64,000 bases of DNA, from contig NZ_WUEH01000006.1 in the NCBI RefSeq assembly GCF_010468615.1, positions 1-64,000 of the forward strand, written 5' to 3'. The notes beneath the pieces were generated by a model. It saw only the letters and a list, made by a program, of their open reading frames with translations, had not been told where the DNA came from and made no database searches. Below are positions 4,677 through 21,347 of this stretch, piece after piece. This stretch comes from Pseudodesulfovibrio sp. JC047. GTDB lineage: Bacteria; Desulfobacterota; Desulfovibrionia; Desulfovibrionales; Desulfovibrionaceae. Each line of letters starts with the position of its first letter. The first letter of the stretch is position 1. The position numbers and the translations under genes are program-made.

Positions 4677-5019
4677 TGGAGAAAATTTGAAAGACGGCTG
4701 CGGGTGTCAGGCGGTACTTTCCGTGCTGTGGCTGAGTTCCTGTTTGGCTGTGTATAAGGCTGTTGACATCGTCCATATTCCTCGAAAAATGAACGCAGTT
4801 TATCTGTGTCTTTGAGCGAGTGCCCGACGGTTGATTCTGCGGTCTTTTCTTTGTTTCTTTTAAAAAAAACATACTCCACACCATGGAAAAACATATTTTT
4901 GTATGGCGTAAAATTTCCATATTGCTAAAAGTGTGAATTCGGAATACGAAGACCATCCTGAATTTGCGACTGCTTCAGTCGGTGTTTTTTTGTTTTTCTT
5001 ACTTGTTGTGGGGGTCACT
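4677..5019 (+). other. Intergenic region upstream of the sigma-54 activator gene
   Basis: A 343 bp gap between uvrA and the regulator. It holds a TTGACA at about 4764 without a good -10 partner, an AT-rich tract at 4855-4930, and the factor-independent terminator described separately at 4967-4990. An open frame from 4933 runs into the regulator, but its first 29 codons read through the terminator hairpin and T-tract (producing VGVFLFFLLVV). I consider this untranslated leader, not protein. Confidence 0.6.
4967..4990 (+). terminator. Factor-independent terminator or attenuator ahead of the regulator gene
   Basis: Stem CGACTG/CAGTCG with loop CTT, followed by GTG and a run of T. It lies about 30 bp before the chosen regulator start at 5020. 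It may end uvrA-derived transcripts or act as an attenuator in the regulator's own leader. Confidence 0.65.
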
Positions 5020-6492
5020 ATGAAGATCAAAGAAAAATTCAAACTTTCGCGTCAAACCCGAAATTTGCTTGATTGTCTTGCTGCGCTTGGGAATTTCATT
5101 GAGGTCATAGATGAGAGGGGTTTTTACATCTATATCTCTCCAAACTGCACGTATGATTTGACAACTGCGGATGAGCTTATCGGGTTGCATGTCACCGAAG
5201 CCTTTGAACTGACCAAAGATTCGAGCATCCTGCTCAACACGCTTTCTTCCGGAAAGCCGTATAGGGATCTCCTCTTAAAATACAAATCGACCAAGGCTGA
5301 GCGGGCGATCGAATTTCTCTATAATTCTTTTCCCATCATAGAAAATAATTCGCCAGTCGGAGCCATCACAATTTATCGCTATCTCGATGATGTGAAGAAG
5401 GCGGTCCGGTATGTCGATACATCTGAAACGCAGTTTCTTGATACCAGCAAGTCCATCGTCAAGCAGCATGGCGACCTGTTTTCCTTTAGTGATATCATTT
5501 GCTCTTGCCCGGCAATGGACGAAGCTATCAAGCTTTCAAAACGAGTGGCAAAGACGGATTCCTCTATTCTCATCATTGGGGAAACCGGCACAGGTAAGGA
5601 ACTGTTTGCACAGAGTATTCATTCTTTTTATGGAAACGAGCAACGTCCCTTTGTCGCTGTGAACTGCGCTGAAATTCCAGAAAATCTCATGGAAAGTACG
5701 CTTTTCGGGACGACAAAAGGGTCCTACACCGATGCGCTCGATAAGCGGGGATTGTTTGAAGAGGCTGATGGAGGAACGCTTTTCCTGGACGAATTGCATA
5801 CGTTGAACATTGAAACGCAGAGCAAGATTCTGCGAGTGCTAGAGACGAAAACGGTCCGAAAAGTCGGTGGCAACAAACGGACGTCTGTCAATGTCAGAGT
5901 GCTTTCTTCCATGAACTGCAACCCTCTCGAGGCCATGGACAAAGGGCTTTTGAAGCCTGACTTGTTTTACAGAATCGCTGTGATCGGTATCCGGGTTCCG
6001 CCACTCAGAGAGCGTGGTCTGGATGAAGTACGATTGCTTACCAATCATTTCATCAGTCTTATCAATGCGAAGCTTTCGACAAATATATCTGGGTGTTCGG
6101 AAGAGACATATGCGATTTTTGGGCAGTATGGATTCCCGGGCAATTGCAGAGAGCTGTCTCATATCATCGAACATGCGGGGAATATGATCGAGGGTAATGA
6201 AACAATTATTCAGCCCCGTCATCTGCCGTACTACATCAATGAAATTTTGCGATGTCATTGTGCGCAGGATGCGCTTGACAGTGCCAAACGCCAGCCGAGT
6301 CCTGTTTATAAAATTGGTGATTATAAGGCGGCGCATCAAAAGGCTCTGGATGAATTTAACACGTCATTCAACGAAGGGTTTTTGAAACATGCCTTGGAGC
6401 ATTTCAATGGGAATGTCACAAAGACAGCGAAGGCGATTCATATTTCTCGGCAGCATCTGCATGGGCTGATTACAAAATATGTTGATGAATAA
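5020..6492 (+). CDS. Sigma-54-dependent transcriptional activator (PAS, AAA+, Fis HTH)
   Basis: A 490-residue enhancer-binding protein. Residues 10-120 look like a PAS sensor (NFIEVIDERGFYIYISP, ELIGLHVTEAF). The AAA+ domain has Walker A GETGTGKE at 187-194 and Walker B GGTLFLDE near 252-259. A Fis-type helix-turn-helix (GNVTKTAKAIHISRQHLHGL) is near 463-483. The sigma-54 contact loop reads GSYTDA (234-239) instead of the consensus GAFTGA. I start at the ATG at 5020 because TGGGGG lies upstream and the longer frame runs through a terminator. It converges on fixX and sits beside three predicted -24/-12 promoters in the cai-like cluster, so it is probably the cluster's activator; the PAS ligand is unknown. 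Confidence 0.92.
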   Translation: MKIKEKFKLSRQTRNLLDCLAALGNFIEVIDERGFYIYISPNCTYDLTTADELIGLHVTEAFELTKDSSILLNTLSSGKPYRDLLLKYKSTKAERAIEFLYNSFPIIENNSPVGAITIYRYLDDVKKAVRYVDTSETQFLDTSKSIVKQHGDLFSFSDIICSCPAMDEAIKLSKRVAKTDSSILIIGETGTGKELFAQSIHSFYGNEQRPFVAVNCAEIPENLMESTLFGTTKGSYTDALDKRGLFEEADGGTLFLDELHTLNIETQSKILRVLETKTVRKVGGNKRTSVNVRVLSSMNCNPLEAMDKGLLKPDLFYRIAVIGIRVPPLRERGLDEVRLLTNHFISLINAKLSTNISGCSEETYAIFGQYGFPGNCRELSHIIEHAGNMIEGNETIIQPRHLPYYINEILRCHCAQDALDSAKRQPSPVYKIGDYKAAHQKALDEFNTSFNEGFLKHALEHFNGNVTKTAKAIHISRQHLHGLITKYVDE

Positions 6493-6505
6493 AATGTGAG
6501 ATGGA

Positions 6506-6540
6506 GAACACCCATTGGATTCAATGGGTGTTCTTTTTTT
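6506..6540 (+). terminator. Terminator after the sigma-54 activator gene
   Basis: Perfect 12 bp stem GAACACCCATTG/CAATGGGTGTTC, loop GATT, then seven T. It lies between the convergent activator gene and fixX. On the opposite strand the same hairpin has no T-run, so it mainly serves the rightward gene. Confidence 0.9.
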
Positions 6541-6544
6541 CAGG

Positions 6545-6832
6545 CTAGCCAAATCTGAATTCGACGCCAAATGTTCCCTGCGGGTATTCCCAGCTTTCGA
6601 GGATGGTGTCGCCACACAGGATGCGGCATGTGCCACACTCGAGACAGCCTGCATAGTCGAACTGGAGGTTGTCCTCGTCGTCGATCTTGTACAGCCCGGC
6701 AGGACAGGCAGCGATCAGCTTTTTCACTTCGGCACGATCAGCATTTTCTTTCAGCTTGATGTGTGCGCCATCTTCGTCAACGAAAAATTTGTTGACCCCA
6801 AGTTTTATATCGGTATTGACTTCATTACTCAT
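6545..6832 (-). CDS. fixX: Ferredoxin-like protein FixX
   Basis: A 95-residue iron-sulfur protein of the FixX family. Cysteines lie in CPAGLY near residue 45 and in CLECGTCRILC near 63-73. The C-terminal WEYPQGTFGVEFRFG is typical of the family. FixX partners FixC in moving electrons between the FixAB flavoprotein and the membrane quinone pool or a low-potential carrier. Its start overlaps the fixC stop by four bases (ATGA), implying translational coupling. It is the last gene of the leftward caiA-caiB-caiD-fixC-fixX run. Confidence 0.93.
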   Translation of the reverse strand: MSNEVNTDIKLGVNKFFVDEDGAHIKLKENADRAEVKKLIAACPAGLYKIDDEDNLQFDYAGCLECGTCRILCGDTILESWEYPQGTFGVEFRFG

Positions 6833-8115
6833 ATTGATCGTACTCCTTTCCAGCCATCTTTGAGCAAATTCATGAATCCGGCCTTTTTCAAGTGGCCCAT
6901 GAACGATTTGCGCAGGGGGGTGGATGCCCCTTTCACGGTAAACAAGTCATGCATCATGGAATTCACCATCTCTGGATATTCGTTGTACATGCGATTGTTA
7001 TCGAGGAATTCCGGCATTTTGCTGTACAGGTTCAAGTCCTTCATCACAAAGCTGTCTTCCAACAGTTTCGTGTAGCTGGACAAGGAATCTGCGGTGAAAT
7101 TATCCGCTTCCTTGGCTTTGAGAACGGCCTTGGCAGCAGCTTCACCGGATGCGATGGCCAGATCCATTCCGCGAACGGTGTATCCCACGTTCAGGCACAA
7201 TCCAGCGGCATCTCCGGCAATAAGGATGCCATCATCAACCATTTTGGGGATCATTGCACGTCCACCTTCGGGCACGACGTGAGCGGAATATTCCATGAGT
7301 TTTCCGCCTTCGATCAGGGGTGCGATCATCGGATGCTGTTTGAAATCTTCCAGCATTTGCGGAACGCTCTTGGTGACCGAGTCAATGTTGTGCAGGCCAA
7401 AGACAAGACCCAATGAGATACTTTCTTCATTGGTATACAGGAAGCCGCCACCCATTTGATTGTCAGACGGTGTTCCGGCCACCAGCCATGCTGCGCCTTC
7501 CTTGTCGGTGCAGCCAAAACGGTCATTGATCTGCTGCTTGGACAGTTGAATGATTTCCTTCACACCAACAGCGCAATGGTGCGGGCTCAGCTTGTTCACC
7601 AGCCCGGCCTTCTGGCCGAGGAGCGAGTTGACACCGTCAGCCAGAATGACGACATTGGCTTCGAGTTCGTCTTCTCCGGCAACGACACCACAGACCACGC
7701 CGTCGCGTATGATCAAATCATCGACACGAATGCCGGAAATGTAGTTGGCCCCTTCATCTTCCGCTTTTTCGGCCAGCCATGGGTCGAATTTTGAGCGAAG
7801 GACTGTGTATGACCGCTCGGCAGGGTCTTCGGACATGACGTTCGAATGGTCCATGGTGGTGCAACCATCTTCATTCATGAAAGATATTTTTTCATGAACA
7901 ATACATCGTTCCACAGGGGCTTCCTCGGCAAAGTCGGGAATGATTTTTTCCAGACTGTGGGCATATAACCGTCCACCAGTCATGTTCTTTGCACCAGGGA
8001 AATTGCCTCGTTCGACAACGACGACTTCCAAACCGGCTTTGGCGAGCAAATACGCACAGGTAGACCCCGCCAGACCGGCACCAACTATGAGAGCATCAAA
8101 TTTATCTTCAGACAT
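6829..8115 (-). CDS. fixC: FAD-dependent oxidoreductase FixC (ETF-quinone oxidoreductase type)
   Basis: A 428-residue flavoprotein. The N-terminal dinucleotide-binding motif is ALIVGAGLAGSTCAY (9-23), followed by VVVVERG. A second FAD motif, GILIAGDAAGLCLNVG, lies near residue 300, and GYTVRGMDLAIASGEAAA follows. The family accepts electrons from the FixAB electron-transfer flavoprotein and works with FixX. In this cluster it is expected to link the CaiA reaction to cellular redox pools; direction and any electron bifurcation cannot be read from sequence. It lies 72 bp downstream of caiD, and that gap carries an 11 bp perfect hairpin. Confidence 0.94.
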   Translation of the reverse strand: MSEDKFDALIVGAGLAGSTCAYLLAKAGLEVVVVERGNFPGAKNMTGGRLYAHSLEKIIPDFAEEAPVERCIVHEKISFMNEDGCTTMDHSNVMSEDPAERSYTVLRSKFDPWLAEKAEDEGANYISGIRVDDLIIRDGVVCGVVAGEDELEANVVILADGVNSLLGQKAGLVNKLSPHHCAVGVKEIIQLSKQQINDRFGCTDKEGAAWLVAGTPSDNQMGGGFLYTNEESISLGLVFGLHNIDSVTKSVPQMLEDFKQHPMIAPLIEGGKLMEYSAHVVPEGGRAMIPKMVDDGILIAGDAAGLCLNVGYTVRGMDLAIASGEAAAKAVLKAKEADNFTADSLSSYTKLLEDSFVMKDLNLYSKMPEFLDNNRMYNEYPEMVNSMMHDLFTVKGASTPLRKSFMGHLKKAGFMNLLKDGWKGVRSI

Positions 8116-8187: not shown

Positions 8188-8973
8188 TTATTTATTGGTA
8201 AAAACGGGCTTCCGTCTTTCTTCGAAAGCCTTCATGCCCTCTTGGGAATCGGTGGATTCGTAGGTCATTCTGTCAAACTGACGTTCCAGATCCAGACCTT
8301 CCTGAATACCCATGTTCAGGTAGTAGTTCAGGGCTTTTTTGGTCAACCGGTTCGAGATGGGTGCATTGGCGCTGATCTTGCGAGCCAGATCCATTGCCTC
8401 GTCCATCAGCTTTTCTGCGGGGAAGACGTCCTGGACAAGACCGATTTCCAATGCTTTGGCAGCAGTGAGTTTCTCTGCTGTGAACATCATCTTTTTGGCC
8501 TGTCCGGCACCGATGTTTCTGACCAGACGCTGGCTTCCGCCCCATCCGGCAATCAGACCGAGGGAGGTTTCCACGAGGCCAACCCTGGCGGTTTCGCTGG
8601 CGATACGGATGTCGCAGGAAAGAGCCAGTTCAAGACCGCCACCCAGTGCGTAGCCATTGATTGCGGCAATCATGGGAATCGGGAAGTTGGCGACTTTGGT
8701 CAAAATGCCACGAGCCCAGACATCGGTCTCTTCGAGATCGTCAACCGTGGGATCGGTCAATTCGCCAACATCGGCACCAGCGCAAAAGGCTTTTTCGCCT
8801 TCACCGGTTACGACAACGCAGCGCAGATCGGACTCTTCGGCCAATTCGTTCATGACGTCGCGGAGATCACGGAGCATCTGTCCGCTCAAGATATTGTATT
8901 TCGGCTGATTCAGTGTGATGACAGCAATGTTTTCGCTGAGTTCGCACTTAATCGTTTCGTATGAATATGCCAT
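8188..8973 (-). CDS. caiD: Enoyl-CoA hydratase/isomerase family protein, probable crotonobetainyl-CoA hydratase
   Basis: A 261-residue crotonase-fold enzyme of usual length. The oxyanion-hole segment AFCAGADV and the glycine-rich NGYALGGGLELAL are present. Both catalytic glutamates of true hydratases are kept: E115 in GGGLEL and E135 in GLVETSLG. The protein could therefore carry out a real hydration or dehydration. Its position between caiB and fixC makes carnitinyl-CoA/crotonobetainyl-CoA interconversion the likely reaction, but sequence alone cannot separate this from a general enoyl-CoA hydratase. It starts 9 bp after the caiB stop, in the same transcript. Confidence 0.85.
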   Translation of the reverse strand: MAYSYETIKCELSENIAVITLNQPKYNILSGQMLRDLRDVMNELAEESDLRCVVVTGEGEKAFCAGADVGELTDPTVDDLEETDVWARGILTKVANFPIPMIAAINGYALGGGLELALSCDIRIASETARVGLVETSLGLIAGWGGSQRLVRNIGAGQAKKMMFTAEKLTAAKALEIGLVQDVFPAEKLMDEAMDLARKISANAPISNRLTKKALNYYLNMGIQEGLDLERQFDRMTYESTDSQEGMKAFEERRKPVFTNK

Positions 8974-8982
8974 GGTATCCTC

Positions 8983-10236
8983 TTATTTTTCTTTGTCATC
9001 GCGGAAGATGACACCCTTGTCGTACAACTGATCGATCTGTTCCTGACCATATCCAAGGTCTTCGAGAATGGCGTCGTTGTCATAGCCGACATGGGGCATG
9101 GAACGCCAAATCTTCGGCTGGTTCACCTTGAATCTGGGAACAATGTTGACGCCCTTGTACTCTTCCTCAGTCGTCATGGTTTCCCAGTTCAGCCAGCAGT
9201 CGCGGGCCTGATACTGGGGATGCTTGACGATGTCCTGGAAGCCGAGGACAGGAGCGGCAGCAACCCGCATACCGTCGAAAATGGCGATATGTTCTTCGTT
9301 GGTTTTGGTGGTGAAATACTCTTCGACCTTTGATTCCACATAGTCGGCCTTGTCCCAGTTCATGTTGATGAACGAGAAGCCTTCCTTGAAGTCGCCGGTG
9401 CCGTAGATATCGTCGCAACCGATCATGGAGAACAGGGTCTTCATCTGCTTGCGACCGAGAATGTTGGTAAACAGGAAACCGTCTTTGGTCTTGTAAATGC
9501 CGGTGGCACCCTGGATGGGGTCTTTTGCGCCCGGACGGGGGTACAATCTGCCATCGTTCAGGTAATCGACCAGGTTGTAGGTCGAGAGACGCATCAGGAC
9601 TTCAGTCATGGCGATGTCGATGCTTTCGCCTTTTCCTGTGTCGCGAGCGCGAATCAGTGCGGCAAGGGTGGAAGACAGGCCGAACATGGCGGTGAAGAGG
9701 TCGCCGACATACGGGTATGCAGGCATCGGAGATTCCGGGGTACCGTTCTGGCTCATGTAGCCGGACATTGCCTGGGCAATACCGTCATAGCAGGGGCGAT
9801 CGATGAAATTGGGATCGGCGTCTTCTTGGCCGTAGCCGGAAATTCTGGTGATGACGAGTTTGGGGTTGATGTCCCACAGGAATTCGTCAGTGATGCCCTT
9901 CTTGATGAAGTTCGGGCCTTTACCTGCAACCAGAAAGACATCGGCTTCCTTGATGAGTTTTTTGAAAACTTCCATTCCTTCATCGGCAAAGATGTCGAGA
10001 GACATGGAACGGTCGTTTCTGTGCTCATGCTCGGAAGGGCGGTAGTTGCGGTTGGTGTCTCCACCATTCACGTTTTCGAGCCAGATAACATCAGCACCCC
10101 ATTCTGCCATGAAGTGGGGACCCAGGGGACCGGCAACTTCAACAGCGGAAAAGACGACTTTGACATCTTGCAACACGCCAAATTTTGGCGGGCGGTGATT
10201 TGAGTTATCGAAGAATTCCTTCACATTATTTTTCAT
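8983..10236 (-). CDS. caiB: CaiB-type CoA transferase (crotonobetaine/carnitine CoA-transferase)
   Basis: A 417-residue family III CoA transferase that moves CoA between butyrobetaine-type acyl-CoA and incoming crotonobetaine or carnitine. It tracks the enterobacterial CaiB closely: VVFSAVEVAGPLGPHFMAEW, EWGADVIWLENV, KGPNFIKKGITDEFLW and RDTGKGESIDIAMTEV. The catalytic aspartate is Asp179 in YPYVGDLF. The C-terminal RFKVNQPKIWRSMPHVG segment is also shared. It is about twelve residues longer than the E. coli enzyme, mostly at the N-terminus. It follows caiA after a gap of about 150 bp with two hairpins. Confidence 0.95.
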   Translation of the reverse strand: MKNNVKEFFDNSNHRPPKFGVLQDVKVVFSAVEVAGPLGPHFMAEWGADVIWLENVNGGDTNRNYRPSEHEHRNDRSMSLDIFADEGMEVFKKLIKEADVFLVAGKGPNFIKKGITDEFLWDINPKLVITRISGYGQEDADPNFIDRPCYDGIAQAMSGYMSQNGTPESPMPAYPYVGDLFTAMFGLSSTLAALIRARDTGKGESIDIAMTEVLMRLSTYNLVDYLNDGRLYPRPGAKDPIQGATGIYKTKDGFLFTNILGRKQMKTLFSMIGCDDIYGTGDFKEGFSFINMNWDKADYVESKVEEYFTTKTNEEHIAIFDGMRVAAAPVLGFQDIVKHPQYQARDCWLNWETMTTEEEYKGVNIVPRFKVNQPKIWRSMPHVGYDNDAILEDLGYGQEQIDQLYDKGVIFRDDKEK

Positions 10237-10389: not shown

Positions 10390-11529
10390 CTAGCCTCTGT
10401 ATTCCTTGAGAACACTGCGGCCGAGGGTCAGGATCATCATTTCGTCGGTACCACCGGAAACGCGGGAGGCACGGATGTCTCTCCAGGCGCGGCTGGCTCT
10501 GTGATCGCCGCAGATGCCGACACCGGCGAGGATCTGGAGGGCGTCGTCAGTGACTTCCTGAGCAGCGGTGACGCAGTAGTATTTGCACATGGCGGCGTAG
10601 CCTTTATCCAGAGTGCCTGCATCGACCATTTCAGCACCGGTGTAGACCATGTGCTTCATGTTGGTCAGCTTGGTCTTCATGTTGGCAAGCTTCAGCTGGA
10701 TCAGTTCAGTACGACCAATGGCTTCGCCGAACTGGATGCGCTGGTTGGCATACTTGGCAGCGTCTTCGAATGCACACAGGGCATAGCCGTAGCAGTAGAG
10801 ACCGGAAATGATGCGTTCCTGGTTGAAGTCATCTTTTTGCATGGAGAAACCAGCACCTTCTGCACCGATCATGTCTTTTTCTTCCACTTCGACGTTATCG
10901 AGGTAGATTTCACCGGCGCTGTTGGTCTTCAGGCCCAGTTTTTCCAGACCGGAGATGGTCACGCCGGGAGCGTTGGTGGGAACCAACCAGTTGGTGTAAT
11001 TGGTCATGGTTTCGGCATCCAGGGCCGTCACGATGATGTAGTCGCTGTATGTGGCGTCTGTGCAGAAAGTCTTCTGGCCGTTGATGTAGACTTTGCCGTC
11101 TTTGCGGACGTAGTTGGTCTTCATGGCGCCGAGGTCGGAACCTGCACCAGGCTCGGTGGCAGCATTACCAATTTTGGTCAGGCCGGTTGCCATCATCTCT
11201 TCAGCGAGTTTGATTTGCTCTTCGGTGCCTTCCCGGAACAAGACAGGGTAGGTGGTGGAGAACCAGATGCTTGCAGCGTTACCGCCAAGGCGCAGTACTT
11301 CTTCCCATGCAGCCACGAAAGTCACCATGGCATCTTCTTCCAGTCCACCGTATTCAACAGGGTTGACGATCTGGTGAAGGCCAAGTTCTGCAAGTGCCTT
11401 ACAAAATCTTTCAGGGAACTTGTGCTCATTGTCGCATTCCTTGAAATAATCATCCCAGTTTTCCCGGGTCATCAGTTCTTTCATACTTGCAACAATCAGT
11501 TTTTGTTCTTCTGTCAATGCGTTAGCCAT
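10390..11529 (-). CDS. caiA: Crotonobetainyl-CoA reductase-type acyl-CoA dehydrogenase
   Basis: A 379-residue FAD acyl-CoA dehydrogenase matching CaiA across its length. Landmarks are TEPGAGSDLGAMKT in the flavin-binding middle domain, EKLGLKTNSAGEIYLDNVEVEEKDM, CAFEDAAKYANQRIQFGEAIGR, and the C-terminal WRDIRASRVSGGTDEM. In enterobacteria CaiA reduces crotonobetainyl-CoA to gamma-butyrobetainyl-CoA with electrons from FixAB. The ATG at 11529 is preferred over an upstream one 13 codons away because AAGGAGT lies five bases before it. It is the first gene of the leftward operon, with a predicted -24/-12 promoter at 11759-11774. Confidence 0.95.
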   Translation of the reverse strand: MANALTEEQKLIVASMKELMTRENWDDYFKECDNEHKFPERFCKALAELGLHQIVNPVEYGGLEEDAMVTFVAAWEEVLRLGGNAASIWFSTTYPVLFREGTEEQIKLAEEMMATGLTKIGNAATEPGAGSDLGAMKTNYVRKDGKVYINGQKTFCTDATYSDYIIVTALDAETMTNYTNWLVPTNAPGVTISGLEKLGLKTNSAGEIYLDNVEVEEKDMIGAEGAGFSMQKDDFNQERIISGLYCYGYALCAFEDAAKYANQRIQFGEAIGRTELIQLKLANMKTKLTNMKHMVYTGAEMVDAGTLDKGYAAMCKYYCVTAAQEVTDDALQILAGVGICGDHRASRAWRDIRASRVSGGTDEMMILTLGRSVLKEYRG

Positions 11530-11758
11530 GAATGACTCCTTCCTTTGTGTGGTGTACTTCGCATACATTTAGTAATGTATATGATCGTCCACTATTTTTT
11601 GTATTAAGATGAAACTTTCGCACCTAAATTATACAACAACTCTTGAGAAGGTCGAAGCATACAAAGAATCTTCGATGGTGTTGAACAATGAAATTCAAAG
11701 AAAAGCATTGTCTCATATTCTTGTATGATGCTTGAGCTACCGAGAGTCACACACATTA

Positions 11759-12740: not shown

Positions 12741-14291
12741 ATGCAAAAAGAGTTAGTCGATCTTAGCCAGGAAGAGTTTGAGAATTCCCAGAAAGAGCCT
12801 GCGAATATTAATTATCTTTTGGTCATAACAAGCCTTTTGGCTTTAGGTCTGATCGTCGGATATGCCGCTCTGAATCCTGACCTTATGGGACAGCAGATGG
12901 GAGTGGTCAAAGATTTTATCAGTCATTATTTCGGCTGGTGGTATATTGGGTTGAATGGTTTTTTTTGCTTGCCGGTTTTTATTATTCCTTTGACCAAGTA
13001 TGGTTCTCTCAAGCTCGGAAAGGCGGATGATGTCCCGAGTTTTTCCACTTTTTCATGGATCGCCATGTTGATTGGCTGCTCATTCGCCGTTTCAGTCGTT
13101 GTTTGGGCCGTGGCAGAGCCGCTTTTCCATTGGAAACAACCTCCTTTGGGGGCTGTGGCTGGGAGTATGGAAGCTTTGAAACAGTCATTCCAAATTACGA
13201 TCATGCACACGGGAATCGGTGGGTTCGGTGTCTTTGCCGTTGCAGGCGTATGCATTGGCCTGCCAGCCTTCAGAAGAGGGTTGCCACTGACTTTTTCGAC
13301 GGCATTTTATGGTTTGCTTGGCGATAAGGCCTATTCTCGACCCTTTTCTGCCGTGGTTGAACTGATTGCGATGATCGTCAACTTTCTTGGCATTGCCACA
13401 TCAATCGGTTTAGGATTGATTTCATTGAAGTTCGGTTTGCATTATGTTTTCGGAATTGAACTTGATACGTTCAGGATGATCTGTCTGACAGCCGTGGTCA
13501 GCGCGGGTTTTTGCTGGTCCGTGTGGCGGGGAATCGATTCGGGAATCAAGACATTGAGCAATTTCAATGCGTATATCGCCATGGCTGTGTTTTGCTATGT
13601 GCTCCTTGCCGGGCCGACTTTGCATATCATGAATTGGATCGTGCAGGTGTTTGGTGAATATTTCGGGAACATCGTCTACCTGACGTTCCATACCGATGCC
13701 ACGGAACAGGCACTTGGCGGCAAGTGGATGGGATACTGGAAGGTCTTTTACTGGGGCTGGTGGTTCTCTTTTGTGCCGTTTGTGGGTGGCTTTCTTGCCA
13801 GAATTTCCAAGGGCCGCACGCTGCGGGAAGTGTTGCTGGCATGTACGCTCATTCCCACGGTGACCTGTATTATCTGGTACACCACGTTTGGCATTTCCGC
13901 CGTGTATACCGAAATGAGTGGAACGGTCCCGCTTTGGACAGAAATTCAAAAAGATATCGGGGCTGGTTTTTACGTGATGGTGAGCCAGTGGCCCATGGGA
14001 TTTTTCATTTCCATCATGACTATGTTCATGTTGATGGTCTTCATGGTCACTTCGGCTGACTCGTCTGCCTATTTCTGCTCCATGCAGTTGACGAATGGTT
14101 CGGCTGAACCGAGCAGAACGATCAGAATGGCTTCGGGAATCTCCATTGCGGTGTTGGCGGTCACGCTCATTCTCGTTGGAGGATTGAAGGCCTGCCAGAC
14201 GGCTGCGGTGATTGGTGGATTCCCCATTTCCTTCCTGATGCTGCTCATGTTGTTTTCGTTGTTTAAGTTTCTCAAGTCAGAACAGCTTTAA
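12741..14291 (+). CDS. BCCT family betaine/carnitine/choline transporter
   Basis: A 516-residue inner-membrane protein with about twelve hydrophobic segments. It carries the BCCT signature near residues 331-341 (YWKVFYWGWW), followed by LARISKGRTLRE. Segment VVVWAVAEPLFHWKQPP resembles the AEP motif of betaine-type carriers. It probably takes up a quaternary ammonium compound such as carnitine, betaine or crotonobetaine; coupling ion or exchange mode is not readable from sequence. It has its own -24/-12 promoter and a terminator-like structure downstream. It is less similar to enterobacterial CaiT than the next gene is. Confidence 0.9.
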   Translation: MQKELVDLSQEEFENSQKEPANINYLLVITSLLALGLIVGYAALNPDLMGQQMGVVKDFISHYFGWWYIGLNGFFCLPVFIIPLTKYGSLKLGKADDVPSFSTFSWIAMLIGCSFAVSVVVWAVAEPLFHWKQPPLGAVAGSMEALKQSFQITIMHTGIGGFGVFAVAGVCIGLPAFRRGLPLTFSTAFYGLLGDKAYSRPFSAVVELIAMIVNFLGIATSIGLGLISLKFGLHYVFGIELDTFRMICLTAVVSAGFCWSVWRGIDSGIKTLSNFNAYIAMAVFCYVLLAGPTLHIMNWIVQVFGEYFGNIVYLTFHTDATEQALGGKWMGYWKVFYWGWWFSFVPFVGGFLARISKGRTLREVLLACTLIPTVTCIIWYTTFGISAVYTEMSGTVPLWTEIQKDIGAGFYVMVSQWPMGFFISIMTMFMLMVFMVTSADSSAYFCSMQLTNGSAEPSRTIRMASGISIAVLAVTLILVGGLKACQTAAVIGGFPISFLMLLMLFSLFKFLKSEQL

Positions 14292-14706: not shown

Positions 14707-14722
14707 TGGCCTGGTTGTTGCT
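14707..14722 (+). promoter_or_regulatory. Sigma-54 (-24/-12) promoter for the CaiT-like gene
   Basis: TGGCCTGGTTGTTGCT, a very close match to TGGCACG-N4-TTGCW with correct spacing. Transcription would start near 14734, with a leader of about 130 bases to the ATG at 14863. Confidence 0.75.
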
Positions 14723-14862: not shown

Positions 14863-16389
14863 ATGGCTAAAAAAGTCTCAGAAACTTCAGGAGAAGTGAT
14901 CGATCGCAGTATCGATTACTGGGTGAGTGTCCCTGCAATTCTTATAGTATTAGGTTTTGCACTGGCAATTTTCATGGACCCTGAAGGCATGAATGTCTTC
15001 ATGACGGATTCTTTTCATTTCATGAACCAGAATTTCGGTTGGATGTTGCTGGTTTTTGAATTTGCTTGTGTTCTGTTGTGTCTGTATTTTATTTTTGGAA
15101 AATATGCGAACAAGCGTTTCGGCAACGAAAAGCCTGACTCCAGCACTTTTTCATTTTATGCGATGCTGTTTGCCTACAGTTCTTCCGCAAGTATCGTGTA
15201 CTGGGTCTTCATTGAATTCTATTACTACATTGCTGGTCCGCCGTTTGGCATTGAGGCTTTTTCCCAAGAAGCCATTCAGTGGGGCGTTGCCTATCCGATC
15301 TTCCACTGGGGAGTTCTCGGATTTGCTCCATACGCCATTATGGGTATTGCTTTCGCCTTTTTGCTCTTTGTCAGAAACGAAGACACCTCCCGAGTCAGTG
15401 CCGCCTGTTCGAGCCTGATCGGTGAAAAACACGCAAACGGTCCTGTGGGCAAAGTCATTGACTGCATTTTCCTCGTTGGAATCATTTTCTCCAACGCCGG
15501 ATATTCCTTGGCCGTCAGTGTTCCCATCATCAGTACCTTCTTCAGTAAAATCTTTGGTGTCGAGCATACGTTGGCTCTTGATACCGGCATCCTTCTCGTG
15601 GTTGTGGCGTGCATGACCGTGGCCATGTACACCGGCCTGAAAAAAGGCATGACCTTCATCAGTAACGCCAGACTGTACATGTTCTTCGGCATTGCGTTGT
15701 TCATCTTCCTGGTTGGCGATACCGGCCAGTACTGCAACAACATTGTTTCCTCCACGGCCTTGTGGATGCAGAACTTCGTGGTCATGAGCTTGAACACGAG
15801 CGCCTGGTCACAGTCCTGGACAATCTTCTACGCCATGTTCTTCATCGCGTCCGTGCTGGGAGCTGCGCAGTTCTACAGCAAGCTCTGCAAGGGCCGGACA
15901 GTCCGTGAATGCGTCCTGGGTATCGTTATTGCGAGTGCCATAGGTTGCGCAATCTTCTTCTGGTCAATGGGTAACTATGCCTTGGAAACCTATCTTGGTG
16001 ATCCGGCCCAATATAAGGCCATGATCGATCAGGATCCTTACATGGCTATCACCTACGTGATTTCCAAGTTGCCTTTCTCTAACGTGATTATGGTCCTTCT
16101 GTTGATCTATGCCTTTATCTCCGGATGGACCTTTATCCAAAGCGCTGTGTACGGTAATGCACTGGTTTCTCAGCCGAACCTTCCCGCGGACGAGGACCCA
16201 TCAAAATTCACCCGTTTGTTCTGGTGTGTCGTTACCTGCGTTTTGTCCATAGCATTCCTGTACATTGGCGGCTTGCAGACAGTTAAAAATGCAATGGTGT
16301 GGGCAGGATACCCAACCTTTGTGATTTCACTGCTCATCTTGTTCGCCTTTCTCAAGGATATCAAGAATTGGGATAAGCATTTGTCTTAA
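14863..16389 (+). CDS. CaiT-like BCCT transporter with altered tryptophan signature
   Basis: A 508-residue multi-spanning inner-membrane protein. It resembles E. coli CaiT in several stretches: YANKRFGNEKPDSSTFS, EFYYYIAGPPFG, FHWGVL and LIGEKHANGPVGK. The CaiT substrate-box residues corresponding to Tyr114 and Trp142 are kept. The BCCT signature W-T-x-F-Y-W-x-W-W reads W319-T-I-F-Y-A-M-F-F, so three tryptophans are lost. The GRTVRE loop after it remains. This suggests a related but possibly different substrate or transport mode. An AGGAAAGCGAG ribosome binding site precedes the ATG. The MBL hydrolase follows after a 16 bp perfect hairpin. Confidence 0.88.
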   Translation: MAKKVSETSGEVIDRSIDYWVSVPAILIVLGFALAIFMDPEGMNVFMTDSFHFMNQNFGWMLLVFEFACVLLCLYFIFGKYANKRFGNEKPDSSTFSFYAMLFAYSSSASIVYWVFIEFYYYIAGPPFGIEAFSQEAIQWGVAYPIFHWGVLGFAPYAIMGIAFAFLLFVRNEDTSRVSAACSSLIGEKHANGPVGKVIDCIFLVGIIFSNAGYSLAVSVPIISTFFSKIFGVEHTLALDTGILLVVVACMTVAMYTGLKKGMTFISNARLYMFFGIALFIFLVGDTGQYCNNIVSSTALWMQNFVVMSLNTSAWSQSWTIFYAMFFIASVLGAAQFYSKLCKGRTVRECVLGIVIASAIGCAIFFWSMGNYALETYLGDPAQYKAMIDQDPYMAITYVISKLPFSNVIMVLLLIYAFISGWTFIQSAVYGNALVSQPNLPADEDPSKFTRLFWCVVTCVLSIAFLYIGGLQTVKNAMVWAGYPTFVISLLILFAFLKDIKNWDKHLS

Positions 16390-16467: not shown

Positions 16468-17085
16468 ATGCATATTCGATCATTTCAAGTCAGTGCCTAC
16501 GAGACGAATTGTTACCTTGTGTCCAAAGGGACTGAGGCCATTGTCATAGATCCTGGTGACGACTGCCCGGCGTTGGTTGAGACCATTGCCAAAGAACAGT
16601 TGCACGTCACCCATATTATTATCACCCATACGCACCTCGATCATTTTTACGGTGCAATGCGACTTTCACAGAGTACGGGTGCCAAAATTTACATTCATCC
16701 CGACGATGAAGTGCTTATCGATCAGGAGATCAGTACATGGAAAGAGTGCATGTACTCGGAGTCCTGCGGTCCGATCGACCATGAGCCTCTGCCGTGTGGA
16801 ACGTACCATTTCCTGGAAGAAAAATGTGAAGTCATGCTGACGCCTGGGCATACTCCCGGAAGCGTGACCTTGTATTTCCCGGAGTTGTCGCTCGTTTTTG
16901 TCGGGGATGTCATTTTTCAACGGTCAGTCGGCAGGCACGATTTGCCTGGTGGGGACTATCAGACCCTCATGGCCTCGATTCACAATGTTATTTTGCCATT
17001 GCCGGATTCGACAACGCTGTATACCGGCCATGGCCCGACGACGACTGTGGGGAGCGAAAAGCAGTTTAATCCATTTATTCGATAG
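16468..17085 (+). CDS. Metallo-beta-lactamase-fold hydrolase (glyoxalase II-like)
   Basis: A 205-residue MBL-fold protein. The metal-binding motif THTHLDH is near residues 53-59, with later ligands in TPGHTPGS (about 129-136), FVGDVIF and the C-terminal YTGHGP. It resembles small glyoxalase II/YcbL-type thioester hydrolases. Its place inside the cai-like cluster suggests hydrolysis of an acyl-CoA or other thioester in the pathway, but this is inferred from context. The gene has an AAAGGAA ribosome binding site and lies 78 bp before the MaoC gene. Confidence 0.85.
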   Translation: MHIRSFQVSAYETNCYLVSKGTEAIVIDPGDDCPALVETIAKEQLHVTHIIITHTHLDHFYGAMRLSQSTGAKIYIHPDDEVLIDQEISTWKECMYSESCGPIDHEPLPCGTYHFLEEKCEVMLTPGHTPGSVTLYFPELSLVFVGDVIFQRSVGRHDLPGGDYQTLMASIHNVILPLPDSTTLYTGHGPTTTVGSEKQFNPFIR

Positions 17086-17162
17086 TATTTTTCACCGTGA
17101 GCATGGGTGTGTAACAGCATGTGAACTGTGAAGATCTCAATCATAAAAAGAAGGAATACGAC

Positions 17163-17588
17163 ATGTCAGAAGAACTGGGAAAAACCATTGAAGAATTCAA
17201 GGTCAATGACAGTGCAAGCATCACAAAGGACATCACCGCCGAGAAGTTGGCCGCTTTTGCCGATGTCATTGATGACCATGACCCGATTCATACTGATCCC
17301 GAATACGCCAAAACCACCATTTACGGCAAATGCATTGCCCACGGTGTGTACCTCGATTGCATGATTTCCGGAATGTTGTCCGAGCTTGTCAGTGGTGGGA
17401 TTGATGCGAAATTGAGCATAAAATACACCGCCCCGGTTTTTGCTGGCGATACAATTACAGCAACAGGGACAGTCAAGGAAATCAAGACAGACAGAAATAG
17501 GCTTTTTATTGATACAAAATGCGTCAATCAGAATGGCGAAACTGTTGCTGTCGGCGATGCTGTTTGCCTGGCTCGGACAGACGACTAA
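17163..17588 (+). CDS. MaoC-like (R)-specific enoyl-CoA hydratase
   Basis: A 141-residue hotdog-fold protein. It shows the hydratase-2 signature with FADVIDDHDPIHTDPEYA, giving the candidate catalytic Asp38 and His43, followed by YGKCIAHGVY. Family members hydrate enoyl-CoA to (R)-3-hydroxyacyl-CoA. L-carnitine is itself an (R)-3-hydroxy acid, so a role in carnitinyl-CoA dehydration beside or instead of CaiD is plausible. The ATG at 17163 is preferred over one 14 codons upstream because GAAGGA lies seven bases before it. The E. coli cai operon has no such gene. Confidence 0.85.
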   Translation: MSEELGKTIEEFKVNDSASITKDITAEKLAAFADVIDDHDPIHTDPEYAKTTIYGKCIAHGVYLDCMISGMLSELVSGGIDAKLSIKYTAPVFAGDTITATGTVKEIKTDRNRLFIDTKCVNQNGETVAVGDAVCLARTDD

Positions 17589-17838: not shown

Positions 17839-18588
17839 ATGGATATTATTGCTTGTATAAAAGTGGTCCCAGAGGAACAAGATATTGTGACTTTGCCCAA
17901 TAATGAGCTGTCTTTCGATAAGGTCCAGTGGAAAATCGGTCAGTACGATCTGAATGCCGTGGAAGCTGGCAAGCAGTTGGCAAAGCAGACAGGTGGTTCG
18001 CTGAAAGTCTTGACCATCGGCGGCGACGCTCTTTCCAAGACGAAAATCCGCAAGGACATCCTTTCGCGTGGTGCTGATGAGCTGAACATCGTTGTCACTG
18101 ACCAGAAATTGGATGATTCCCTCATGACCGCAAAAGCGATCGTCGAGGCCCTGAAAGAGATGGGGTCCTTTGATCTGCTGCTGTTCGGTACAGGGTCCTC
18201 GGATATCTACTCGCAGCAAACAGGCAACCAGGTCGGTGCCCTGCTCGATATGCCTGTCCTGAATGAAGTCAACGCCATCGAAGAAGGCGGAGCCGGACTC
18301 AAGGTCGAGCGTATGCTGGAGAACGAGGTCGAAGTCCTCGAATTGCCCGTACCGGCAGTGCTTTCCGTGACGTCCGAGATCAATACCCCCACCATTCCCG
18401 GAATGAGAGACATCATGGCCGCTGGTAAAAAACCGGTGAATGAACTTTCCGCCGATATCTCCTCACTCACAGAATACAGTGAAGTTGTGAGCGATTTGGC
18501 TCCGGTCCAGAAGGACAGACAGTTGAAAGTCCTGAAAGGCGAAACTGAAGAAATGGTTGATGCCCTTATTCAGTTCCTGAATAGCTAA
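17839..18588 (+). CDS. fixA: Electron transfer flavoprotein beta subunit FixA
   Basis: A 249-residue ETF beta subunit. It starts MDIIACIKVVPEEQD and has DLNAVEAGKQLA, the AMP/FAD-site segment DLLLFGTGSSDIYSQQTGNQVGA (about 115-137) and the C-terminal DIMAAGKK. With FixB it carries electrons to the CaiA-type reductase. The ribosome binding site AAGGAG is six bases from the ATG. In the 250 bp gap upstream I see a weak sigma-54-like sequence at 17774-17789 (CGG-N11-GCG), too poor to call. FixA and FixB lie rightward, while FixC and FixX lie in the leftward operon. Confidence 0.95.
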   Translation: MDIIACIKVVPEEQDIVTLPNNELSFDKVQWKIGQYDLNAVEAGKQLAKQTGGSLKVLTIGGDALSKTKIRKDILSRGADELNIVVTDQKLDDSLMTAKAIVEALKEMGSFDLLLFGTGSSDIYSQQTGNQVGALLDMPVLNEVNAIEEGGAGLKVERMLENEVEVLELPVPAVLSVTSEINTPTIPGMRDIMAAGKKPVNELSADISSLTEYSEVVSDLAPVQKDRQLKVLKGETEEMVDALIQFLNS

Positions 18589-18741: not shown

Positions 18742-19656
18742 ATGTCATATACAAATGTTTTTATAATTGCCGATACCGAGGCGAACCTCAAGGAATTGTC
18801 CTGCGGGGCTTCCACATTGGGTTCCAAATTTTCCACGGTTATTTTTGATGAGCAGCTTCAGTCTGTTGCCGCTTCCTATGGTCCGGAAAAGATTTATCAT
18901 TTCCAGGCTCCCGAATCAGGTATCATTGAAGACAACGCCCGTGTGATTGCCGACATGGTCCAGGCCGCAAGCCCCGAGATGGTCTTGCTGAGCAACACCA
19001 CTCGTGGACGCCTGCTGGCTGGTAAGATCGGCGCGTATCTGGACACATGCGTCATTGCCGGTGTGACCGAACTGACCGAAGAAGGCACCAAAAGAATGGT
19101 CTATGGTGGTGCCGCTTTCAGAACACAGAAAGCAACCGCTCAAACAGCTGTTGTGACCTGTAATGCTGGTGTGTTCGAGGTCAGTGAAGGACAGGCATCC
19201 GGCGACGCTGCCGTTGAAGCTGGAAGCGCTGCTTCTGACGTGAAAATCAAGAAAATTGAAACACAGCCCAAAGAGGGTGTGTCCTCAAATATCGCCATCG
19301 CCAAGAAAGTCGTTGATATGGGCCGTGGCTTCAAAGAGGAAAAAGACGTTGAAATGTGCCGTGAATTGGCAAGCCTGCTGGGAGCAGAACTTGGTTGTTC
19401 CAGGCCTGTTGCCGAAAATAACGGCTGGTTGCCGAAATCCGTGTACATCGGTGTGACCGGCATTATCTTGAAACCTGAGATGATTGTTTCCCTGTGTATC
19501 TCCGGACAGGTCCAGCACATGGTCGGTATCAACCAGGCGAAAAAGATTATCGCGATCAACAAGGACGAGCGCGCTCCCATCTTCGCTTCCTGCGATTTGG
19601 GACTGGTTGGCGATGTCTATCAGATCCTTCCCATGCTTATCGAAAAGTTGAAATAA
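18742..19656 (+). CDS. fixB: Electron transfer flavoprotein alpha subunit FixB
   Basis: A 304-residue ETF alpha subunit. The N-terminal domain starts MSYTNVFIIADTEAN. The C-terminal FAD domain has SGQVQHMVGINQAKKIIAIN followed by DERAPIFASCDLGLVGDV, the usual layout of the family. It pairs with FixA. A strong terminator follows at 19669-19722, so caiC probably has separate expression or read-through expression. The reading frame is complete. Confidence 0.95.
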   Translation: MSYTNVFIIADTEANLKELSCGASTLGSKFSTVIFDEQLQSVAASYGPEKIYHFQAPESGIIEDNARVIADMVQAASPEMVLLSNTTRGRLLAGKIGAYLDTCVIAGVTELTEEGTKRMVYGGAAFRTQKATAQTAVVTCNAGVFEVSEGQASGDAAVEAGSAASDVKIKKIETQPKEGVSSNIAIAKKVVDMGRGFKEEKDVEMCRELASLLGAELGCSRPVAENNGWLPKSVYIGVTGIILKPEMIVSLCISGQVQHMVGINQAKKIIAINKDERAPIFASCDLGLVGDVYQILPMLIEKLK

Positions 19657-19668
19657 ACGGATAAAATA

Positions 19669-19722
19669 CAGGTTTAACCATCGAGATTCAGGCCTATCTC
19701 TGTATGGTTAAACCTGTTTTTT
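19669..19722 (+). terminator. Terminator after fixB
   Basis: Perfect 13 bp stem CAGGTTTAACCAT/ATGGTTAAACCTG with a 22-base loop and six T. It stands only about 57 bp before caiC, so it may control how much transcription reaches caiC. Confidence 0.9.
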
Positions 19723-19778
19723 ACAGTGCCTTTTTTCGTTGAATGTTGCAAAATGTTAACAATGTATTGGGTGGGATA

Positions 19779-21347
19779 ATGAACTCGCAAATATGTCATG
19801 AAAGCATCAACGCACTGTGGGATGATTGCTTGGTGAAGGATGAGGACAAAGTATGTATCGTCTATGAATCCAAAGATGGCCAGACATCCCAATTTACCTA
19901 TGGTGAACTGTATCAAAACATAATGAGGGCCTCGAATTTTTTTATTGATCTCAATATTCGGAAAGGTGACAAAGTCGCCGTCCATATGCATAGCTCGCCA
20001 GAATTTTTGGTCATCTGGTTTGCCTTGCTGAGAATAGGCGCTGTCATGGTGCCGCTGAACTGTAATTACACACAGAGAGAATGTCGTTTTATCCTCGATC
20101 AGTGTGATGTGCAGTGTTTGCTGACAGAGTCTGATTTTGTGTCTCTTTATGAAGATGCATTCTTTGCCTCGGTGACGAAAATTCTGACTCGTTCGGATGC
20201 ACCTTTGGAAGGCTATCTGAACTTTGCAGAATGTATAGAGCGTCAACCGACCGAGCTGAAGGAAAAACGGGCCGTCTTTTCTGATGATCCGGCTGAAATC
20301 CTTTTCACCTCGGGAACAACATCATCCCCCAAAGGGGCAATTTTCAATCATTACAACCTTGTTTTTGCCGGGCAGTTTCATGCCGAGCAGATAGGGTTGC
20401 AGCATGATGACCGGTTTTTTACGGTTTTCCCCTGTTTTCATATCGATTGGCAGGCAATTGCCATTTTGCCGACCATTACCCAAAAAGCGACTATCATTGT
20501 CCAGGAACGATATAGTGCGAGCTCTTTTTGGGAGAAGATTCGTCGCCATGATGCGACCCTGATCGAAATGATTCCCATGATTGTTCGGACCACGATGTTG
20601 CAGCCGAAAGTTGCTGAAGAAAAAGACCATCATGTCCGTCGTGCCTATTTTTCCCTGTGTCTGTCTACAGAAGAAAAGAACGCTTTTGAAGAGCGGTTCA
20701 ATGTGCCGTTGTTCAATTGCTACGGCATGACCGAGACGGTTGTGTGCAATGTCGCTGATTTCAAGAACGGCGAAGCCAATTGGCCGTCAGTCGGCAAGAT
20801 TTATGATCCATTTCAGCTTCGGATTGTCGATGACCGGAATCAGCCTGTTCCCACCCTTGAAATTGGAGAGATCTGTATCAAGGGAGAACGAGGGAAGACG
20901 CTTATTTCCGGGTACTACAAGAATGAAGAGCAGACCAATAAACTGTATGATGAAGATGATTGGATGCATACCGGGGACAAGGGCTTTCTTGATGAGGAGG
21001 GGTGGCTGTATTTTGTGGACAGAGGGGCCAATCTGATTAAACGAGCTGGTGAGAATATCTCGGCCAGTGAGGTTGAAAATGTTTTGACTTCTCATGAGGC
21101 CATTGAAGAAGCCGCCGTTATTGGTGTTCCCGATCCAATCAGGGATCAGGCCGTCAAGGCATACGTCAAGTTTTATCCGGGGCAGGAACTGAGCATCCAA
21201 GAGTTGGATGATTTTTGTTCGGAGCATTTGGCGAGCTTCAAGGTCCCCTCATTTTTTGAGGTGGTTGATGATTTCCCCCATACGTGTACCGGGAAAATCA
21301 AGAAAAAGAATTTGAGCAAATCGGTTGTTTGTCCCTGCCGGGGATAA
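19779..21347 (+). CDS. caiC: Crotonobetaine/carnitine-CoA ligase
   Basis: A 522-residue AMP-forming acyl-CoA synthetase that follows E. coli CaiC along its length. The nucleotide motif is EILFTSGTTSSPKGA. Further landmarks are CFHIDWQAIAIL, ERYSASSFWEKIRRHDATLIEMIPMI (family-specific), the YGMTETVV adenylate motif, WMHTGDKGFLDEEG, and the catalytic lysine in CTGKIKKKNL. It activates carnitine, crotonobetaine or butyrobetaine with CoA and ATP. The ATG at 19779 follows a G-rich GGGTGGG and aligns with CaiC; an upstream ATG at 19743 would add 12 residues. It is the last gene of the cluster. Confidence 0.93.
   Translation: MNSQICHESINALWDDCLVKDEDKVCIVYESKDGQTSQFTYGELYQNIMRASNFFIDLNIRKGDKVAVHMHSSPEFLVIWFALLRIGAVMVPLNCNYTQRECRFILDQCDVQCLLTESDFVSLYEDAFFASVTKILTRSDAPLEGYLNFAECIERQPTELKEKRAVFSDDPAEILFTSGTTSSPKGAIFNHYNLVFAGQFHAEQIGLQHDDRFFTVFPCFHIDWQAIAILPTITQKATIIVQERYSASSFWEKIRRHDATLIEMIPMIVRTTMLQPKVAEEKDHHVRRAYFSLCLSTEEKNAFEERFNVPLFNCYGMTETVVCNVADFKNGEANWPSVGKIYDPFQLRIVDDRNQPVPTLEIGEICIKGERGKTLISGYYKNEEQTNKLYDEDDWMHTGDKGFLDEEGWLYFVDRGANLIKRAGENISASEVENVLTSHEAIEEAAVIGVPDPIRDQAVKAYVKFYPGQELSIQELDDFCSEHLASFKVPSFFEVVDDFPHTCTGKIKKKNLSKSVVCPCRG

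Follow-up and report, generated by a model that had tools for sequence, protein, structure and literature searches.

We analysed a stretch of 64,000 nucleotides (hereafter the window) from contig C6 of Pseudodesulfovibrio sp. JC047, whose genome of 3.57 Mb is assembled in 147 contigs (G000). The window carries a 16.4-kb locus of carnitine-type (cai) and fix genes, comprising 13 intact genes at positions 4933–21347. A minus-strand operon with the order fixX-fixC-crotonase-caiB-caiA diverges from a plus-strand set with the order BCCT1-BCCT2-MBL-maoC-fixA-fixB-caiC, where BCCT1 and BCCT2 denote two transporters of the BCCT family. The features of the locus are as follows.

4933..6492, plus strand: sigma-54-dependent activator with AAA+ and AAA lid domains (Pfam Sigma54_activat, 195.9 bits)
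6545..6832, minus strand: FixX-like ferredoxin, 62% identical to E. coli FixX (NCBIfam FixX 141 bits, cut-off 166; no Pfam match)
6829..8115, minus strand: FixC-like electron transfer flavoprotein (ETF)-quinone oxidoreductase, 60% identical to E. coli FixC (NCBIfam FixC 614 bits, passing the cut-off of 610)
8188..8973, minus strand: crotonase-family enoyl-CoA hydratase, 31% identical to E. coli CaiD (generic hydratase models, below cut-off)
8983..10236, minus strand: CaiB-like class III coenzyme A (CoA)-transferase, 43% identical to E. coli CaiB (NCBIfam L-carnitine CoA-transferase 470 bits, passing 413)
10390..11568, minus strand: CaiA-like acyl-CoA dehydrogenase/reductase, true start possibly at 11529, 52% identical to E. 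coli CaiA (NCBIfam crotonobetainyl-CoA dehydrogenase 486 bits, below 540)
11759..11774, minus strand: candidate sigma-54 promoter TGGCATACTGATTGCT preceding the caiA operon, with a like site before caiA in G264 and D. kysingii (see below)
12684..12699, plus strand: weak candidate sigma-54 promoter TGGTGTGCTTTTTGCT preceding BCCT1 (positions −57, −47 and −59 across the three genomes)
12741..14291, plus strand: BCCT1, probable sodium-coupled symporter with an unusual pocket (Pfam BCCT, 451 bits)
14707..14722, plus strand: candidate sigma-54 promoter TGGCCTGGTTGTTGCT preceding BCCT2 (positions −156, −158 and −233 across the three genomes)
14863..16389, plus strand: BCCT2, CaiT-related probable sodium-independent antiporter with an altered pocket (NCBIfam CaiT 394 bits, below 541)
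16468..17085, plus strand: MBL-fold hydrolase, probable thioesterase, kept in all three loci (Pfam Lactamase_B, 106 bits)
17121..17588, plus strand: small MaoC-type enoyl-CoA hydratase, true start possibly at 17163 (Pfam MaoC, 59 bits)
17839..18588, plus strand: FixA-like ETF beta subunit, 44% identical to E. coli FixA (NCBIfam FixA 229 bits, passing 219)
18742..19656, plus strand: FixB-like ETF alpha subunit with Pfam ETF and ETF_alpha, 36% identical to E. coli FixB (NCBIfam FixB-family 228 bits, cut-off 549)
19743..21347, plus strand: CaiC-like acyl-CoA ligase, 43% identical to E. coli CaiC (NCBIfam crotonobetaine/carnitine-CoA ligase 633 bits, below 651)
21363..21389, plus strand: intrinsic terminator-like hairpin directly 3′ of caiC, with a stem of 12 pairs and a T-rich tail behind it (the scan gave 26 such sites in the region against a mean of 18.3 in shuffles)

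The profile matches and the identities to the E. coli proteins place all gene families named by an earlier sequence-only reading, intact, within 4933–21347. FixA, FixB, FixC and FixX are all encoded, FixA and FixC passing their cut-offs and FixX and FixB missing them, and the two transporters are distant from E. coli CaiT (31% identity for BCCT2 and 24% for BCCT1). That reading had also described the gene order correctly, with fixX and fixC accompanying caiB-caiA and with fixA and fixB accompanying the transporters and caiC, as well as the divergent caiTABCDE and fixABCX operons of E. coli. Its list omitted two further members of the locus, the MBL hydrolase (16468–17085) and the small MaoC (17121–17588), which are present in all three genomes carrying the locus, namely that of the window, a second genome of the genus (G264, a single contig) and Desulfuromusa kysingii. 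The gene it had called caiD is only a generic crotonase, as the NCBIfam matches listed (25 of 73) are all below cut-off, with generic enoyl-CoA hydratases as the best. The absence of caiE holds for the first 26 kb of the window but is nothing special, since caiE occurs in only two of the 15 canonical loci outside Enterobacterales and Shewanella/Ferrimonas within the stretches fetched.

The same genome possesses a separate, canonical cai-fix cluster on contig C3 (L012, L115). Its genes follow the order MBL, caiT, caiA, caiB, caiC, a two-domain MaoC (MaoC2, Pfam MFE-2 hydratase 2 plus MaoC) replacing CaiD, fixA, fixB, an SSF transporter and then fixC and fixX. The preceding MBL gene is 44% identical to that of the window. 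The C3 proteins are close to those of E. coli (CaiT 71%, CaiA 77%, CaiB 67% and CaiC 55% identity) and pass all four NCBIfam carnitine cut-offs (CaiT 850 bits against 541, CaiA 724 against 540, CaiB 646 against 413 and CaiC 846 against 651). The window copy passes one of the four, with 470 bits for CaiB; CaiA reaches 486, CaiC 633 and BCCT2 394 bits, and BCCT1 scores 200 bits against the CaiT cut-off of 541. The window-type proteins of D. kysingii behave alike, CaiA failing with 496 bits and CaiB passing with 476. Hence, the designation of the window locus as a complete, rearranged carnitine cluster stands insofar as it is a CoA-thioester and FixABCX system with BCCT transporters, but the view that it is the carnitine cluster of this genome is not supported, and the presence of the canonical one weakens the carnitine assignment.

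Both cluster types also occur in G264, and three other genomes (G242, G036 and G065) each have one CaiB, of the canonical type. The canonical clusters of these genomes and of C3 share CaiA, CaiB, CaiC, FixA and FixB with the window, and FixC was seen in C3, G264, G036 and G065. They differ from the window in a CaiA 77–82% identical to that of E. coli, in having the two-domain MaoC2 and not CaiD, in an SSF-family transporter (Pfam) and in a single CaiT. In C3 and G242, caiT has an MBL hydrolase gene as its neighbour. The distance between the two is about 3 kb in G065, and in G264 the MBL gene is located about 4 kb beyond fixC; the G036 stretches showed none. A TetR-family gene lies near the C3 cluster, unlike in the window; in G264, a TetR-family gene 54% identical to the one before the C3 cluster directly follows the window-type caiC (L114, 7152–7922), a place where the window has none. 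We observed the two-domain MaoC-type hydratase without CaiD in 14 fetched loci, mostly outside Enterobacterales (L012 at 13729–14586, L013, L014, L019, L020, L024–L029, L033, L040 and L124), whereas nine Shewanella/Ferrimonas cai loci carry CaiD and MaoC2 together. Since the 3-hydroxy isomer formed by hydratase-2 enzymes is usually the opposite one, the MaoC2 of canonical loci may serve D-carnitine use or carnitine epimerisation; our search of the open-access literature returned no paper combining carnitine, crotonobetainyl-CoA and MaoC. One canonical locus, from an uncultured Campylobacterales (L029, 6202–12067), has two CaiB and two MaoC2 genes.

The two cluster types also differ in CaiA. 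In a tree with YdiO and related Bacillota enzymes as the outgroup, window-type (three rows) and canonical CaiA form one clade (support 100/100), within which the window type is a clade of its own (100/100), its stem measuring 0.96 changes per site. The canonical sequences come from Enterobacterales, Shewanella/Ferrimonas, Campylobacterota, Bacillota and the family to which the window genome belongs; they differ much less among themselves and hold together without the window type at 91/86 (84/47 in another tree), leaving the latter as their sister. We identified 58 positions at least 95% conserved in 84 canonical rows and fixed otherwise in all three window-type rows. Many lie in the segment 82–96 of E. 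coli CaiA (P83N, T84A, Y85A, Y88W, Q89F, L90S), with V244S, T247Y and N248C among the others; by analogy with structures of acyl-CoA dehydrogenases, we take this segment and V244, T247 and N248 to be walls of the acyl pocket. The window-type CaiB, in which Asp179, aligned with E. coli CaiB Asp169 and presumably catalytic, is invariant, likewise forms its own clade (96/94), here on an open fork beside the Bacillota and the remaining sequences; the great length of the outgroup branches leaves the root unsure, and the row from Curtobacterium is odd. The sequence-only reading had named a position of CaiA and CaiB outside the carnitine-active clades as a refutation of the carnitine assignment. With CaiA as sister to the canonical enzymes and CaiB on a separate branch of uncertain root, the trees lean that way; a place outside the sampled carnitine clades lowers the likelihood of carnitine activity, short of excluding it.

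In quick trees without bootstrap, FixA, FixB and CaiC fall with the Bacillota cai clusters, and FixC joins the canonical clusters found in Campylobacterota, Endozoicomonas and members of the family. We therefore rejected the notion of a rearranged descendant of the enteric cai-fix operons, as the trees are mosaic, with CaiA and CaiB on their own. Among seven features of the canonical cai system that we looked at, the window locus has one (the CaiB cut-off) and lacks five (the CaiA, CaiC and CaiT cut-offs, a CaiD or MaoC2 orthologue and membership in the CaiA clade), the seventh, the CaiB clade, being on the open fork.

The two transporters are of different kinds. BCCT1 finds its closest solved structures in TmaT, BetT and BetP, and it has Asn at the position of CaiT Arg262, a TSADS motif and the Trp pair of transmembrane helix 8 (TMH8). 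BCCT2 is nearest to CaiT among solved structures (253 bits), with the dimethylsulfoniopropionate (DMSP) transporter DddT at 239 bits. Arg262 of CaiT confers sodium independence. An Arg occupies this position in all three BCCT2 orthologues and in 83 of 84 CaiT rows, and Asn or Thr was found in the non-CaiT BCCT rows that aligned. These residues suggest that BCCT1 is probably a sodium symporter and BCCT2 probably a sodium-independent antiporter with a changed pocket. Compared with CaiT, the BCCT2 pocket shows W321A, W323F, W324F, Y327S, Q330G and M331A/G, the residues F, F, S, G and A/G at 323, 324, 327, 330 and 331 recurring in all three orthologues; Trp323, a Phe in BCCT2, is present in 84 of 84 CaiT rows. 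Two Bacillota CaiT-like rows also deviate at W324, Y327, Q330 and M331 and keep W321 and W323. For comparison, we used a control alignment of 39 BCCT rows, from which L129, L138, L143, L144 and L146 were disregarded (wrong frame), leaving 34 usable rows; L134 duplicates BCCT1, and L141 gave no row. The TMH8 aromatic positions vary widely among the other BCCT proteins of the family in this alignment, so the changes in BCCT2 indicate a different pocket, not a named substrate, and we rejected them as proof of a new substrate. In BCCT1, the TMH4 residue corresponding to CaiT Trp142 is Thr in all three orthologues. Of the 34 usable rows, 30 have Trp here, and the four exceptions are BCCT1 and its copies. 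The genome as a whole encodes six BCCT transporters at E ≤ 1e-40 (further ones at C3:110919-112373, C3:99751-101211 and C10:148213-149679), which is many for the family, any BCCT being found in 17 of 59 sampled genomes.

Both hydratases of the window locus look active. The two glutamates of the crotonase (in GGGLEL and LVETSLG), which we assume to be catalytic, align with those of CaiD in the window, G264 and D. kysingii. The overall identity to CaiD is low compared with the 83–87% between the CaiD of the nine Shewanella/Ferrimonas loci and E. coli CaiD. The small MaoC has an (R)-specific enoyl-CoA hydratase as its closest solved structure, and its DHDPIH aligns with DFNPLH of that enzyme, keeping the Asp/His pair presumed to be catalytic in hydratase 2. 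Crotonases and MaoC hydratases usually yield opposite 3-hydroxy stereochemistry. Such a pair would suit a chiral substrate of at least four carbons and, unless the MaoC is a lyase, makes a C3 acid (e.g., DMSP) less likely. At 97% identity, the small MaoC (17121–17588) is the most conserved of the 13 proteins between the window and G264, which hints at an important role. Two further observations concern these enzyme families. In D. kysingii, a second crotonase-like gene, in two pieces in different frames and possibly decayed, lies between MaoC and fixA (L112, 17470–18277), where the window has none. On plasmid G07 of Curtobacterium sp. MCLR17_007 (L124, 9001–13519), a CaiB-like stretch (41% identity, two pieces, no gene annotated) is followed by AMP-binding, MaoC and MBL-hydrolase genes, so that CaiB is accompanied by an MBL hydrolase also in a lineage remote from the relatives of the window.

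The locus also has its own sigma-54 activator, as the sequence-only reading had proposed, with −24/−12-type sites at like places in the three genomes. Its best NCBIfam model is PrdR with 283 bits, below the cut-off of 795; its orthologues are 80% identical in G264 and 61% in D. kysingii, and the regulators beside the Bacillota cai clusters L024 and L026 are 36–39% identical. The sequence GSYTDA (GAYTDA in D. kysingii) replaces the usual sigma-54 contact motif GAFTGA, which the Bacillota relatives retain. Sites of the pattern TGG-N10-GC precede caiA, BCCT1 and BCCT2 in each of the three genomes (9/9 regions) and fixA in D. kysingii only; none was found with this pattern before the window activator gene. 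A scored scan gave 13 sigma-54-type matches in 26 kb of the window, compared with 4.2 in single-base shuffles.

The search for the same genes in related genomes, suggested together with the carnitine assignment, recovered the 13-gene set in one of 35 other genomes of the genus (G264) and, outside the genus, in D. kysingii DSM 7343 of the class Desulfuromonadia, where all 13 genes occur at 60–87% identity with other genes in between. D. kysingii has no second CaiB (one match in that genome, and in one of 194 genomes of its class). Judged by CaiA, the window type is present in two and the canonical type in three of 36 genomes of the genus. CaiB matches, of either type and with the window genome included in every count, were obtained in 3 of 149 genomes of the family (E 1e-60), 5 of 247 of the order and 1 of 395 of the phylum (E 1e-70), in samples that overlap and are parts of larger groups. 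A scan with two peptide patterns over one genome per species (84,980 species), a procedure that can miss members and may lack records close to the genome of the window, gave 113 CaiB relatives, of which 79 loci were kept, and a single one, from D. kysingii, was of the window type. No window-type CaiA was found among 82 genomes of the class of the Peptococcaceae metagenome-assembled genome (MAG) or 369 of the class of Ferrimonas, the matches listed being at most 54% identical.

All 13 genes are under purifying selection. Between the window and G264, nonsynonymous substitution (dN, 0.016–0.163) is far below synonymous substitution (dS, 0.60–1.70) for every gene and the frames are intact, and chance or decaying open reading frames (ORFs) were accordingly rejected; in the comparison with D. 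kysingii, dS has reached saturation for 12 of the 13 genes. In all three genomes, the locus has a lower G+C content than the adjoining DNA (47.8 vs. 52.8%, 51.6 vs. 58.0% and 41.4 vs. 48.5%, with one flank only for D. kysingii), which is not the case for the canonical C3 cluster (50.1 vs. 49.9%). None of 46 mechanically listed flank ORFs of the window had a match in a 30-kb stretch of G264. From this composition and the dissimilar flanks, the locus has apparently been moved horizontally as a unit.

Among known systems, the caiTABCDE and fixABCX operons of E. coli and Proteus resemble the window in combining CaiA, CaiB, CaiC, FixABCX and a CaiT-related BCCT in one locus of divergent operons. 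The window differs in CaiA, CaiB and CaiC of only 43–52% identity, with CaiA in its own clade, in the mixing of fix and cai genes across two operons and in the absence of a true CaiD, CaiE or CaiF from the locus, which also contains no MaoC2. It has in addition a second BCCT of another branch, the MBL hydrolase, the small MaoC and the sigma-54 activator. The Bacillota cai clusters (Neobacillus, Robertmurraya and the Peptococcaceae MAG; L024–L026) share with the window the grouping of FixA, FixB and CaiC and, in two of three, a related sigma-54 activator, but their CaiA is 76–81% identical to that of E. coli and on the canonical side of the tree, and they have MaoC2 and one CaiT-like BCCT (not seen in L025). 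The bbu cluster of Emergencia timonensis converts gamma-butyrobetaine to trimethylamine and needs BbuB and BbuC CoA-transferases together (PMC8364193). It is like the window in an acyl-CoA dehydrogenase-family enzyme, class III CoA-transferases, a BCCT and, presumably, induced use of a betaine acid, yet its six-gene list has two CoA-transferases, with a thioesterase and a ferredoxin in place of FixABCX (PMC8364193). As the first 26 kb of the window contain a single CaiB-like gene and FixABCX is present, we rejected identity with the bbu cluster on grounds of gene content. The ydiFOQRST-fadK genes of E. coli likewise combine a CoA ligase and FixABCX-like proteins with an acyl-CoA dehydrogenase, but YdiO falls outside the clade of CaiA and window-type proteins, and neither BCCT nor CaiB is in the stretch fetched. 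Our search of the open-access literature gave no record of the window locus and no title or abstract start on a cai-type cluster in bacteria of this kind; the nearest works reportedly deal with a carnitine module on a Psychrobacter plasmid (PMC6514802) and, as reviews, with flavin-based bifurcation (PMC5861303, PMC6085437).

The locus is thus a real, conserved and rare variant of carnitine-type respiration. On balance, we favour the view that it constitutes a second, separately evolved cai-type module using as electron acceptor a betaine-like carboxylic acid other than L-carnitine or crotonobetaine, which are presumably handled by the canonical C3 cluster. The main argument comes from the existence of the C3 cluster together with the CaiA evidence. 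In such a module, BCCT1 would import the acid with sodium, and CaiC would charge the first molecule with CoA. Thereafter, CaiB would hand the CoA of the reduced product on to incoming substrate, at no additional cost in ATP. The crotonase and the small MaoC would dehydrate the CoA-ester, or otherwise beta-eliminate it, to a 2-enoyl-CoA, the double bond of which CaiA would reduce with electrons delivered via FixA and FixB, FixC and FixX providing the link to quinone and ferredoxin. The MBL hydrolase might release stalled CoA-esters, BCCT2 would swap the spent product for fresh substrate, and the sigma-54 activator would turn the operons on. Corrinoid demethylation of the substrate was rejected, as no MttB-type demethylase was found in G000, G264 and G657, the three locus-bearing genomes; among six genomes searched, one such enzyme was found, in G036 only.

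Several points weigh against a new substrate. CaiB passes the cut-off of the L-carnitine CoA-transferase and CaiC misses its own by only 18 bits, so carnitine itself stays among the candidates, and D. kysingii, with the window type and no canonical CaiB, may use it as its carnitine system. The sister position of the window CaiA, at 91/86, lacks full support, and YdiO shares the window residue at 9 of the 58 differing CaiA positions, which may therefore be ancestral and not newly changed. Given how much the TMH8 positions vary among BCCT proteins, the changes in BCCT2 do not necessarily point to a new class of substrate. As to regulation, most of the scored sigma-54-like matches lie inside genes, which makes single sites weak evidence. 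The TGG-N10-GC pattern was picked after a first look, D. kysingii being the independent case since the window and G264 are close kin, and the BCCT1 sites of these two fall below the threshold of the scored scan, which missed them.

An alternative is that the window proteins are carnitine isoenzymes, acting under other control on the same C4 trimethylammonium acids as the canonical cluster (L- and D-carnitine, crotonobetaine and gamma-butyrobetaine), with crotonase and MaoC opening both carnitine enantiomers. The CaiB and CaiC scores, the proximity of BCCT2 to CaiT among solved structures, the sole presence of the window version in D. kysingii and the nine Shewanella/Ferrimonas cai loci with CaiD and MaoC2 together all speak for it. 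We nevertheless consider it rather unlikely, as two of the three locus-bearing genomes already have the full canonical set, the pocket residues of CaiA and BCCT2 differ, and the stem of the window CaiA is long even though canonical CaiA remains 76–81% identical between E. coli and three Bacillota.

The use of DMSP or beta-alanine betaine appears improbable. In that scheme, CaiB would make the CoA-ester, the crotonase or MaoC would remove dimethylsulfide or trimethylamine to give acryloyl-CoA, and CaiA with the Fix proteins would reduce it to propionyl-CoA. Respiration of DMSP-derived acrylate is known from marine sulfate reducers, and the score of BCCT2 for DddT is near that for CaiT. However, CaiA scores 486 bits with the CaiA model and 200 bits with the acryloyl-CoA reductase AcrC, and a hydratase pair of opposite stereochemistry would be pointless for an achiral C3 acid, unless one of the two is a lyase. 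The pocket of DddT is made of Trp140, Trp320, Trp321 and Tyr324 (PMC13270143), for which BCCT2 has W, F, F and S when aligned with DddT. Finally, an oxidative direction, in which the module would oxidise a saturated acid such as gamma-butyrobetaine and pass the electrons to quinone, is highly improbable: FixC and the hydratases are compatible with either direction and relatives of acyl-CoA dehydrogenases work both ways, but the genes annotated in the locus comprise neither a 3-hydroxyacyl-CoA dehydrogenase nor a thiolase, CaiA of E. coli carries a reductase annotation, and the CaiB- and CaiT-like parts suit the exchange of substrate and product.

Returning to the second cai-type module, a more far-reaching version of this reading is tentative. 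The locus may represent an undescribed respiratory module, passed as a cassette between distant anaerobes, for a novel betaine- or sulfonium-type acceptor (an osmolyte such as DMSP or D-carnitine), in which two transporters would share the work, a sodium symporter providing net uptake and a sodium-independent antiporter exchanging substrate and product. The locus warns that not every caiAB-fix locus stands for carnitine metabolism, as here the canonical one lies elsewhere in the genome. Betaine-type osmolytes are abundant in marine settings. If anaerobes do respire one of them beyond the carnitine system, the question of the substrate could be reduced to a few purified proteins, and the module would add a step to the turnover of nitrogen or sulfur osmolytes.

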